From IMG/VR virus record IMGVR_UViG_3300008111_000127, positions 1-44,696 of that record: a stretch of DNA of 44,696 bases, one strand, 5' to 3'. A program made the position numbers and the translations under genes. This DNA comes from a virus. Every line of letters begins with the position of its first letter. Positions within the stretch are counted from its first letter, which is position 1. The notes under the pieces are model-generated. The model did not search any database. It had not been told where the DNA came from and saw nothing but the letters and a program-made list of their open reading frames with translations. Shown here piece by piece: positions 24,875-28,011 of the stretch.

Positions 24875-25675
24875 GTGGCAGCACCTAGACCAAGAAGGAT
24901 ATCGGATTTTAAACCAGCACTAACAAATCTAGCGCAAACTTCACATTATCAGGTTGTTTTTGGTGGTCTACCATTACCTTTAAGACAACATTTGAATGTC
25001 CGTGGAGTTGGTTATAGGTTTATTACTGAGACATCAGGACTTCTGTGCTATTCTGCTTCGTTACCTGGAAGTGCTCTTGCTACTGCGAATATTAAGGGAA
25101 ACTTTATGGGAGTCGTTGAAAATATGGCTCACACAAGATTGTTTACTGAGATAGGTCTTGAGTTTTATGTTGATAATGAGTATAAAACTCTGAAGTTCTT
25201 AGAACATTGGATGGACTTCATTTCTAATGGATCCGCACATAGAAAAGCATCTGATGATTATTATTTTAGGATGGAATATCCAGAAGATTATAAATCAAAC
25301 CAAACAAAAATTATTAAGTTTGATAGAGATTATAAAGAAGATATAGAATATACTTTCTGGGGTCTTTTTCCAAGAGATCTTTCATCAACAGTAGTGAAAT
25401 ATGATGCATCGGAGATATTAAAAGCATCAGTACGCTTTAGTTACGACAGATATATTTGTGGTAGAAGTGATAGTTACTCTATTCACAGAGGAACTGATGA
25501 TAATAAGAAAAATGATAATTCAAATCAATCAACTGGTAATGAAGGACAGAGATATGTTCCAGTTTCTGCTGGTGCTGCTCAGGCTGGTGGAGTTAGATTT
25601 ATTCCTGAAGGTATGACTTATGCTGAAGCACTTAACAAGGGACAAGTCTACAATAGCCCCTATGGACCTAGATAA
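24875..25675 (+). CDS. gp54-like tail tube initiator or tube-like baseplate protein
   Basis: The 266-residue product, starting at GTG, resembles the tail tube-like baseplate family: SHYQVVFGGLPLPLRQHL, NMAHTRLFTEIGLEFYVDNEYKTL (given here in parts as FTEIGLEFYV) and a C-terminal tail with GAAQAGGVRFIPEGMTYAEA. It lies immediately upstream of gp26/51 and the hub genes, where cyanophages often carry gp54, the protein that starts tube assembly. The assignment rests on position and tube-like sequence. AAGG lies about eight bases ahead of the GTG. Confidence 0.6.
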   Translation: MAAPRPRRISDFKPALTNLAQTSHYQVVFGGLPLPLRQHLNVRGVGYRFITETSGLLCYSASLPGSALATANIKGNFMGVVENMAHTRLFTEIGLEFYVDNEYKTLKFLEHWMDFISNGSAHRKASDDYYFRMEYPEDYKSNQTKIIKFDRDYKEDIEYTFWGLFPRDLSSTVVKYDASEILKASVRFSYDRYICGRSDSYSIHRGTDDNKKNDNSNQSTGNEGQRYVPVSAGAAQAGGVRFIPEGMTYAEALNKGQVYNSPYGPR

Positions 25676-25704: not shown

Positions 25705-26421
25705 ATGCCTTTACCAAAAATATCTACACCAACCTATGAGTTGGAACTTCCTTCTAATGGAAAGAAAATTAGATATCGCCCTTTTCTTGTAAGAGAAGAA
25801 AAGATTCTTATCATCGCAATGGAAAGCGAAGATGATAAGCAAATCACAAATGCTGTTAAGGAAGTTATTTCTAACTGTATCCTAAGCAGAGGAATTAAAA
25901 TCGAACAACTGTCTACATTTGATATTGAATATATCTTTTTGAACATCAGAGGTAAATCTGTTGGCGAAGAAGTGGAAGTTATTGTAACATGTCCAGATGA
26001 TGGAACTACCCAAGTTCCCGTAACAATCAACTTAGATGATATCAAAGTTGAGACTGGAAAGAACCATAATAGAGATATCAAACTTGATAATGATCTTATT
26101 CTGAGGATGAAGTATCCATCTATGGAAGAATTTGTGAAAAATAATTTCAGCACCGAAGAGCTAAACTTAGATAATACTTTTGATCTAATCTCTTCCTGCA
26201 TTGAGCAAGTCTATTCTGAGGAAGAGTCTTGGTCAGCATCGGACTGTTCTAAGAAAGAACTTAGAGAATTTCTTGAGCAGTTGAGTTCAAAACAATTCAA
26301 AGAGATTGAAACATTCTTTGAGACAATGCCAAAATTGTCTCATACTGTTACGGTGATGAATCCAAATACAAAGGTTGAAAATGAAATTGTTCTGGAGGGA
26401 TTAAATGCTTTTTTCGGGTAA
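25705..26421 (+). CDS. gp26: gp26-like baseplate hub or tail assembly chaperone
   Basis: The 238-residue product has LELPSNGKKIRYRPFLVREEK near the start, DIEYIFLNIRGKSVGEEVEV and CPDDGTTQVPV in the middle and an acidic helical C-terminal half ending LEGLNAFFG. I recognise it as the cyanophage protein usually called gp26. T4-family gp26 and gp51 help build the hub and are likely relatives of tail assembly chaperones. A -1 frameshift signal at its end would join it to the small ORF that follows. It has a late promoter motif upstream. Confidence 0.7.
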   Translation: MPLPKISTPTYELELPSNGKKIRYRPFLVREEKILIIAMESEDDKQITNAVKEVISNCILSRGIKIEQLSTFDIEYIFLNIRGKSVGEEVEVIVTCPDDGTTQVPVTINLDDIKVETGKNHNRDIKLDNDLILRMKYPSMEEFVKNNFSTEELNLDNTFDLISSCIEQVYSEEESWSASDCSKKELREFLEQLSSKQFKEIETFFETMPKLSHTVTVMNPNTKVENEIVLEGLNAFFG

Positions 26422-26450
26422 GTATGGCTCATGAAGATCTTGAGTCATAC
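26409..26450 (+). promoter_or_regulatory. -1 programmed ribosomal frameshift signal
   Basis: The slippery heptamer T TTT TTC (26409-26415) is in the right frame of the gp26-like gene. After a 6-base spacer (26416-26421), GTATGGCTCA (26422-26431) pairs with TGAGTCATAC (26441-26450), ten pairs with one G-U, around a nine-base loop. The stop of the zero frame is at 26419-26421. The stem covers the start codon of the next ORF. Shifting gives a 300-residue fusion. Confidence 0.75.
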
Positions 26451-26606
26451 TACAAGATAAATTTTGCCTTGATGCAGCATCATAAATACTCATTGACTGA
26501 ACTAGAGAATATGATACCTTGGGAAAGAGAAGTTTATCTCACTTTCCTAAAACAATATATTGAGGAAGAAAATTTAAAACAACAGCAATCTGAACTAAAT
26601 GGCTGA
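26424..26606 (+). CDS. Small gp51/T-domain-like protein, probably made by frameshift
   Basis: The 60-residue product, MAHEDLESYYKINFALMQHH then YSLTELENMIPWEREVYL and a charged tail, resembles the T part of lambda-type G/GT tail assembly chaperones and may correspond to the T4 gp51 slot (T4 order 26-51). It is in the -1 frame relative to the preceding gene, three codons after the slippery site. It also has its own ATG, which lies inside a stem. Its end overlaps the next start by eight bases. Chaperones of this kind act on the tape-measure protein encoded next. Confidence 0.65.
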   Translation: MAHEDLESYYKINFALMQHHKYSLTELENMIPWEREVYLTFLKQYIEEENLKQQQSELNG

Positions 26607-28011
26607 GTTTTCATCGCCAATCACAACTGGTTTAAGAGTAAGAAGAACTAGAGTATCCTCTTTTTCGTTTCTGAATCGTCCCCAAGACCAACAGCCAAGG
26701 GAAGATTATGGAACTACGCTTGCGCTGCAGCAGAATAGACTTGCTTTTGATAATATTAATTCTTCCCTTATAAATCTTAGTAATCAAGTTAGTGCTCTAA
26801 GTGCTTCTCTGAATGGTATTGCTGAAAGAGTAAGAGAAGATTCTGCATTAGATCAGGCAAGAGAATCTCAGAAGATAAGACAGGAAGAAATCTTAGCAGA
26901 GCAGAAAATCAGAGAAGGTAAAGAAAGCGTCGTTGAACGCAAAATGCAGTCTGCTCTTTTGACTCCGATTAAAAAAGTTGGCGATAAAGCAAGATTTACT
27001 CTAGGTAGATTATCAAGCTTCTTTATGATTCTCCTAGGTGGTTTCCTAGGAAATATGGCGCTATCAACTATTAGTGCCTTGATATCTGGTGATAAAGAAA
27101 GACTAGAAGAACTTAAGCAAAAGTTCTTGAAGAATATTGGTGTTGTAACTGGTATTTTCTTATTGTTTAGTGGTGGATTTAGAACTATACTTGGTTATCT
27201 TACCAGACTTACTTCTAAGTTGGGTAGTTCTATTTTTAGAAACTTATTAATTAGACCTGTTGCTGCACTACTCAATTTAGTTAAAACTGCTGCTGCAGGT
27301 ATAGCGGCAGGAATAGGTTTAAAACCAAAAACAAAACCAACTCCAACAAAACCAAAACCATCAGCACCACCAGCAAAAACTTCACCTGGAGGTAAAGCAG
27401 GATCTAGTGGAGCTCCACCTGCTTCATCTGGTTCTAAAGGAAGTCCTTTTGGTTCATCAGTACTTAAAGGTGGTTTATTCGCTGCAGGTGCGTCTGCAAT
27501 ATACGATACGCTTTTTGGATCATCTGTTGGTGAAATGATCGCTGGTTCTGGTACAGGTTTTGCTGCTGGCGGTGCTCTATCAGCATTAAACTATGTTCTA
27601 GGTCCAAAATTCACAATACCGTTAACAATAGCTGGAACATTTGCTATTCCAGCATTGATTGGTCTTGGTAAGGAATTTTATAAGGGAAGCGATATTGGTA
27701 AAGATAATCCATTCTTGAATACAGAGATTAATTTACTAGATGCGTTTACTGGACAAGGACCATTATTTAAAACACCATCTCCAGAAATAAATGCACCACC
27801 AAAAAAATCTAATGATAATCTCCAGTCATTAAAAAGTTCAGACTCTGGAGGTAATGTAACAGTAATTAATAATGAATCTACTGCTAGTGCAAGAAATGTA
27901 CCAACACAAGATCTAGGTTCTGCTAACTATCTGCCTAGCATTGCTACTTCAGATCCAGATAATTTTCACAAGTATACTTCGTATCGTTACTTTAATACTG
28001 GATGGGCATAA
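26599..28011 (+). CDS. Tape-measure-like tail protein
   Basis: The 470-residue product has an N-terminal coiled-coil part (residues about 50-120, with QVSALSASLNGIAERV), then hydrophobic segments (SFFMILLGGFLGNMALSTI near 139 and GIFLLFSGGFRTILGYL near 185). A Lys/Pro-rich linker (residues about 238-275) and a second hydrophobic stretch near 290-355 follow. This layout fits a tail tape measure or hub protein, like T4 gp29, which sets the tail length. It lies straight after the chaperone genes, as tape measures do. Confidence 0.6.
   Translation: MAEFSSPITTGLRVRRTRVSSFSFLNRPQDQQPREDYGTTLALQQNRLAFDNINSSLINLSNQVSALSASLNGIAERVREDSALDQARESQKIRQEEILAEQKIREGKESVVERKMQSALLTPIKKVGDKARFTLGRLSSFFMILLGGFLGNMALSTISALISGDKERLEELKQKFLKNIGVVTGIFLLFSGGFRTILGYLTRLTSKLGSSIFRNLLIRPVAALLNLVKTAAAGIAAGIGLKPKTKPTPTKPKPSAPPAKTSPGGKAGSSGAPPASSGSKGSPFGSSVLKGGLFAAGASAIYDTLFGSSVGEMIAGSGTGFAAGGALSALNYVLGPKFTIPLTIAGTFAIPALIGLGKEFYKGSDIGKDNPFLNTEINLLDAFTGQGPLFKTPSPEINAPPKKSNDNLQSLKSSDSGGNVTVINNESTASARNVPTQDLGSANYLPSIATSDPDNFHKYTSYRYFNTGWA

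Follow-up and report, generated by a model that had tools for sequence, protein, structure and literature searches.

A conserved, probable lambda G/GT-type -1 frameshift signal in a gp26-like tail assembly chaperone gene of cyanophage-like T4 relatives

The window, by which the whole 44,696-base virus record is meant, carries a gp26-like gene that ends in GCT TTT TTC GGG TAA and is followed, one frame back, by a conserved open reading frame. On the comparisons of sequence presented here, the locus most probably (at about 95%) encodes a pair of tail assembly chaperones of the lambda G/GT type, made by -1 ribosomal frameshifting on T TTT TTC. The signal is most likely real and well conserved, and the mechanism originally proposed for it correct. 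The locus is one more instance of an already known system, to which the covariation of the downstream stem and the existence of lineages with no start codon for the -1 frame add detail.

Results

The cyanophages P-SSM2 and S-SRM01 are among the best-scoring named relatives of the window in the phage collection, with 74.6% DNA identity over this stretch, and the features of the locus are collected in Table 1. The original prediction had described an in-frame T TTT TTC, a six-base spacer (26416-26421) and a ten-pair stem with a nine-base loop, and each of these is correct base for base in the window. The order of the elements is also as described, the end of the gp26-like gene being followed by the -1 frame ORF and then by the next gene, and the stem does span the ORF's own start codon, the ATG at 26424, by which it may, as originally proposed, promote frameshifting at the expense of independent starts. 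From the slip the -1 frame reads RVSMAHED, and its end overlaps the next gene by 8 bases. The locus thus has the form of a -1 programmed ribosomal frameshift site, with an in-frame X XXY YYZ and a -1 frame open past the 0-frame stop. A scan of the locus for promoters and terminators returned 6 promoter-like sequences (3.3 expected) and 0 terminators (0.4 expected).

Table 1. Features of the gp26-like locus, in coordinates of the window.
Feature	Position	Strand	Evidence
Tail tube protein gene	24875..25675	+	GTG start; Pfam PF23849 Phage_TTP_2 5e-17; phrog_45 tail tube 4.6e-39
gp26-like gene, putative short tail assembly chaperone form (N domain), 238 aa	25705..26421	+	PF12322 T4_baseplate 4.3e-76
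GGAGGG, Shine-Dalgarno-like, 9 bases 5' of heptamer; possible upstream stimulator (suggestive)	26394..26399	+	
Slippery heptamer T TTT TTC, in frame	26409..26415	+	
Stop codon of short form, one codon past heptamer	26419..26421	+	
Stem 5' arm, includes ATG at 26424	26422..26431	+	fold z -5.1; covariation
Stem 3' arm	26441..26450	+	fold z -5.1; covariation
-1 frame extension, putative C domain of long chaperone form (ORF listed 26424-26606)	26415..26606	+	
Next gene, 470 aa, tape-measure candidate by position	26599..28011	+	

Conservation was assessed in 324 loci, comprising 80 from a first scan, 14 from named phages, 229 from later scans and the window itself. Of these, 319 were usable and 284 unique, the window being represented by an identical relative (L001). 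Each of the first four scans contributed its best 80 of 588-598 confirmed matches, and the set is therefore weighted towards sequences close to each query; when the proteins of Aeromonas 65 and Cr30 were used for distant scans, 5 and 2 loci were returned. Aeromonas 25 (L095) and T4 (L096) were excluded beforehand because each has two genes, and five loci were dropped, four of them cut or ending early (L249, L266, L306 and L323) and one for an internal stop (L021). The in-frame stop within the gp26-like gene of L021, at about position 2461, is perhaps a sequencing error.

A slippery T TTT TTN is present in frame, at the homologous place, in all 284 unique loci, and in 272 it is T TTT TTC. Such conservation is beyond chance, since only 3 of the 286 other Phe-Phe pairs in the same genes are slippery and 14 are TTT TTC. 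Codon choice at the site is equally strict: the first Phe codon is TTT in 284/284 and the second is TTC in 272 of the 277 loci that have Phe there, while Phe elsewhere in these genes is encoded by TTT 2282 times and by TTC 934 times. The stop codon of the short form lies exactly one codon past the heptamer in 280/284. Eight further named phages were inspected one by one. KVP40, Marzo, Ci1, AsFcp_2 and S-CRM01 likewise have T TTT TTC with a -1 extension, and pf16 has T TTT TTT with a -1 extension. The other two count against the frameshift model, each having a -1 ORF and no canonical heptamer: Vibrio phage K452 (L329 3690-3910), where the gene ends CTT TTT GCG TAA, and Serratia phage Kevin (L331 3740-3925; Ackermannviridae), where it ends GTT TTC ATC TAA. 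These may use a different shift site or reinitiation. In Sinorhizobium phage phiM7 (L092 2680-2710) a T TTT TTT is followed by a stop two codons on, and an ATG lies inside the -1 extension.

The stem consists of ten pairs, one of them G-U. Folding of 26416-26460 gave -16.2 kcal/mol (z -5.1), which none of 200 shuffles equalled, and the same stem was retained in a longer fold of 26416-26600 (z -2.25). When 40-base stretches were folded across the relatives at 57 offsets from -400 to +160, the lowest mean energy, -10.56, fell right after the heptamer, and in 190/284 loci (67%) that stretch was within the lowest tenth of the locus's own offsets. A second dip in mean folding energy, to -7.6, was seen in the relatives about 100 bases past the heptamer (about 100-140), inside the extension.

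For the window's own type of stem, 66 unique segments were picked by the 5' arm and the codon following it, and not by pairing. All ten pairs form in 52/66, and 96.4% of cells are paired over the whole set, as against 28-39% for versions of the stem slid out of register. The covariation score was 0.094 compared with 0.029 in shuffled alignments, and none of 500 shuffles scored as high. Three pairs have changed on both sides and six further pair types occur, values that were matched by 12 and 15 of 500 shuffles, respectively. The double changes lie mostly at one pair (U-A 48, A-U 7, G-C 6), so the evidence from covariation is concentrated there. Outside this clade the structure differs: P-HM1, S-PM2 and Cr30 have different hairpins after the heptamer, no such stem was seen after the heptamer in S-RIM2, syn9 or Aeromonas 65, and in 41/284 loci the fold over 45 bases is weaker than -7 kcal/mol. 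Since the heptamer is kept while the hairpins differ or are absent by clade, the heptamer is the constant part of the signal and the hairpin a replaceable one. The alignment of gene junctions proposed as a check of the original prediction thus upheld the heptamer in all 284 unique loci and the stem, by covariation, in the window's clade; as a family-wide feature the stem did not hold.

A further element may lie upstream. GGAG, GAGG or AGGA occurs 7-20 bases 5' of the heptamer in 224/284 loci, compared with 474/5680 randomly placed stretches of the genes, and the conserved Glu at this place is coded GAG in 188/263 loci, compared with 2156/6608 elsewhere. Part of this enrichment arises because the conserved Glu-Gly dipeptide itself favours such bases, and related sequences are not independent; a role for GGAGGG as an upstream stimulator of frameshifting is therefore held to be suggestive. 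The frameshift signal of E. coli dnaX, a cellular gene, combines an upstream Shine-Dalgarno-like stretch, a slippery heptamer of different sequence and a downstream stem. The layout here resembles it, with counts of bases and codons as the basis for proposing the upstream element in the window.

In the 277 loci that include its end, the -1 extension spans 57-68 codons. Its first residue is Arg in 273/284, beneath a 0-frame residue that varies (G 128, A 115, V 27, E 7, other 7), and the second base of that 0-frame codon alters the 0-frame residue and is silent in the -1 Arg codon. From the slip to the position of the window's ATG the residues are conserved in the -1 frame, and the fourth is Met in 139/284 and Leu in 138/284. 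Start codons (ATG, GTG and TTG) were sought in the stretch that begins at the upstream -1 stop and extends 12 codons past the slip. An ATG was within reach in 201/284 loci, at which separate starts are therefore possible; 20 had GTG or TTG alone, and 63 had none, among them ACG-2014d, ACG-2014e, ACG-2014j, S-RIM2 and Aeromonas 65. A FastTree phylogeny was built from 199 rows under 90% identity, with the last codons omitted; on it the ATG at the fourth -1 codon changed state at least 19 times and the state of having no start at all changed at least 18 times, with the slippery heptamer present in every row.

The repeated gain or loss of an ATG at a homologous position could mean that, in the lineages possessing it, reinitiation releases a free C domain in addition to the frameshift fusion. 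Such an addition would be compatible with the G/GT-type reading and is unlikely, though worth bearing in mind: Met at this place suits the fusion as well, Leu is found there in the loci counted above, and none of the 139 ATGs has a strong Shine-Dalgarno match (GGAG, GAGG, AGGA or AAGG 5-15 bases 5'), which is weak evidence because the starts of gp26 itself have such a motif in 71/279. Quite doubtful is an elaboration by which a three-part device, made up of the Shine-Dalgarno-like stretch, the invariant heptamer and the replaceable hairpin, sets the chaperone ratio, and the hairpin, in lineages with the ATG inside its stem, also controls reinitiation, so as to yield short form, fusion and free C domain.

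It is very improbable that the -1 ORF is instead a small gene in its own right, gp51, for which ribosomes would reinitiate at the ATG two bases past the gp26 stop and no frameshift would be needed. An ATG stands at this position in those 139 loci, and gp51 is annotated from it in the P-SSM2 and S-PM2 records. Against this, 63 loci have no start codon in reach, the ATG comes and goes on the tree while the heptamer is always kept, -1 frame conservation extends to the residues ahead of the ATG, no ATG has the strong Shine-Dalgarno match just described, and gp51 of T4 is one continuous long protein. Slippage of RNA polymerase on the six-T run, by which part of the mRNA would gain an extra base and be read straight through, is scarcely credible. 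Every unique locus does have at least six T at the shift site, but the heptamer ends in C in 272/284 and in T in just 5, longer T runs being expected to slip better, and in the window's clade covariation is seen for the stem, which stands at ribosomal spacing.

The identity of the two products was examined by comparison with families. The gp26-like gene scored 255.9 bits against the T4 gp26/gp51 family PF12322, for which the curated cut-off is 24.5. In phrog_150 (282 columns) the gene matches columns 5-232 and the -1 ORF columns 239-278; phrog_150 therefore includes single-chain two-part proteins. T4 gp51 occupies columns 13-280 of the phrog_150 alignment and T4 gp26 columns 14-235. The -1 ORF also matches phrog_634 ('baseplate hub assembly catalyst', 4.1e-27), and a search of five proteins against NCBIfam gave no match above the cut-offs. 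A profile of the C domain, built from the -1 extensions and searched against four proteins, matched the C-terminus of T4 gp51 (1.6e-09) and gp51 of Aeromonas 25 (4.1e-15), and among the same four gave no match to T4 gp26.

Since gp51 has the C domain and gp26 is without it, gp51 resembles the long form and gp26 the short form. T4 therefore looks, by homology, to encode the long form as gp51 and the short form as gp26, with one gene for each; this two-gene layout, shared by Aeromonas 25 and Merlin, differs from the single gene with a -1 extension in the window. The 'T4-type' of the original prediction accordingly cannot include T4 itself, and for its 'hub proteins' a reading as tail assembly chaperones is preferable. 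At sequence level the window would have a short and a long form sharing the N domain, with the C domain on the long form, as G and GT do. Because the extension matches the end of gp51, a part absent from gp26, the locus is best read as a lambda G/GT-type pair.

The fold of the N domain was examined by structure prediction. The structure alignment comprised 56 sequences and the gp26 model had a pLDDT of 88.6; Foldseek returned no significant match for it. When the model was realigned to 729 chains, the top match was the HK97 tail assembly chaperone 2ob9 (Z 7.9, rmsd 4.1, 84 aligned), followed by 3fgx (Z 7.8), YqbN 3klu (Z 7.2) and then 5ir0 (Z 4.8), where a Z under 8 can be coincidence and a best Z of 7 to 8 is typical for models without a clear match. 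Both 3fgx and 3klu are tail assembly chaperones of this type, and coincidence appears less likely as the reason for three chaperones standing at the top. The aligned region is residues 1-96 of the model, and a chaperone fold is thus suggested for the N domain. A long-form model of the T4-like gp51 type, built on an alignment of nine of ten long-form loci and eight short forms, had no chaperone among its 594 aligned chains.

The next gene had been described as tape-measure-like. Its position is the sole basis for that description, and on this basis it is a candidate for the tape measure. Family scans of the gene gave no informative match, and a profile of 72 related downstream proteins did not match T4 gp29. 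In a PHROGs scan of eight downstream proteins, two hit tape-measure families: that of Cr30 (3.5e-09), for which a tail lysin family scored better, and that of pf16, whose hit was weak (0.0085). Of the two neighbours expected for a G/GT-type pair, a tail tube gene lies upstream, and the downstream gene is a tape-measure candidate that gave no match to T4 gp29.

Discussion

If the G/GT-type reading is correct, ordinary translation of 25705-26421 would yield the short tail assembly chaperone, and a smaller share of the ribosomes, held up by the stem and possibly also by a Shine-Dalgarno-like contact at their rear, would shift back by one base on T TTT TTC. These ribosomes would bypass the stop one codon later and continue for 63 codons, giving the long form with its C-terminal domain. 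By analogy with lambda, the tape measure protein would be coated with many copies of the short form and a few of the long one, whose extra C domain would bring in tail tube subunits. The sequences show the heptamer, its frame, the conserved extension, the stem of the window's clade and the homology to T4 gp51; that slippage occurs, its rate and the roles of the two forms in tail assembly are what we infer. The predicted tryptic C-terminal end of the short form is VENEIVLEGLNAFFG, and the fusion would be expected to give VENEIVLEGLNAFFR, then VSMAHEDLESYYK, whereas a product of reinitiation would yield a peptide starting with the M or the A of MAHEDLESYYK.

The heptamer of lambda G/GT differs from T TTT TTC. 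The likeness to lambda lies in layout rather than in a comparison of sequences, with a tail tube gene, a short chaperone, a -1 extension and then a long gene in both, and the locus departs from lambda in its downstream stem and possible upstream Shine-Dalgarno-like element. According to passages of a 2016 review (PMC5009743), lambda too makes a short form and a rarer fusion by -1 frameshifting near the gene end, its chaperones are absent from virions, and long-tailed phages other than T4 widely conserve the G/GT frameshift. Parts of PMC12846349 describe a -1 extension open in every genome examined of the Vandenendeviridae, and a conserved polyT shift site in these and the Andersonviridae; the motif in these other phage families is GTTTTT.

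The arrangement had been thought undescribed for T4-like phages. As papers citing their work indicate, however, Vladimirov, Gautam and Davidson (Virology 2022) had already identified the tail assembly chaperones of T4-like phages, and passages of two later papers cite that study, one for a scheme of a short gene and a fused long gene, the other for T4-like phages with frameshift sites of polyT type. To judge from these passages, the presence of such chaperones in T4-like phages is, as a general finding, already published. Neither the covarying stem nor the start-less lineages were found described in the literature searched, outside which lay the full text of the 2022 study and most subscription papers, and within the same bounds no reports on the cyanophage chaperone frameshift were recognised beyond the papers cited; the parts of PMC10448857 and PMC5587285 covered do not treat this frameshift. 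Taken together, the comparative evidence points to cyanophage-like T4 relatives that retain a lambda-type frameshift seemingly absent from T4. The abstract of the work of Vladimirov and colleagues is said to report frameshifting as retained in several T4-like groups. With its heptamer fixed and its hairpin and start codon turning over, the family offers a natural series in which to ask what elements of a frameshift signal are important.

The frameshift reading also explains why several cyanophage genomes have been annotated with no 'gp51' or with one that has a late start. In S-CAM1, S-WAM2, ACG-2014d, ACG-2014e and ACG-2014j the -1 ORF is without any annotated gene, and in syn9, S-RIM2 and Melnitz-3 the annotated gene begins about 50 bases past the gp26 stop, within the conserved domain. 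Late-starting genes annotated 'baseplate hub assembly' lie at 2771-2914 in L087, 2762-2899 in L088 and 2750-2893 in L091, apparently placed so because an earlier ATG is absent.
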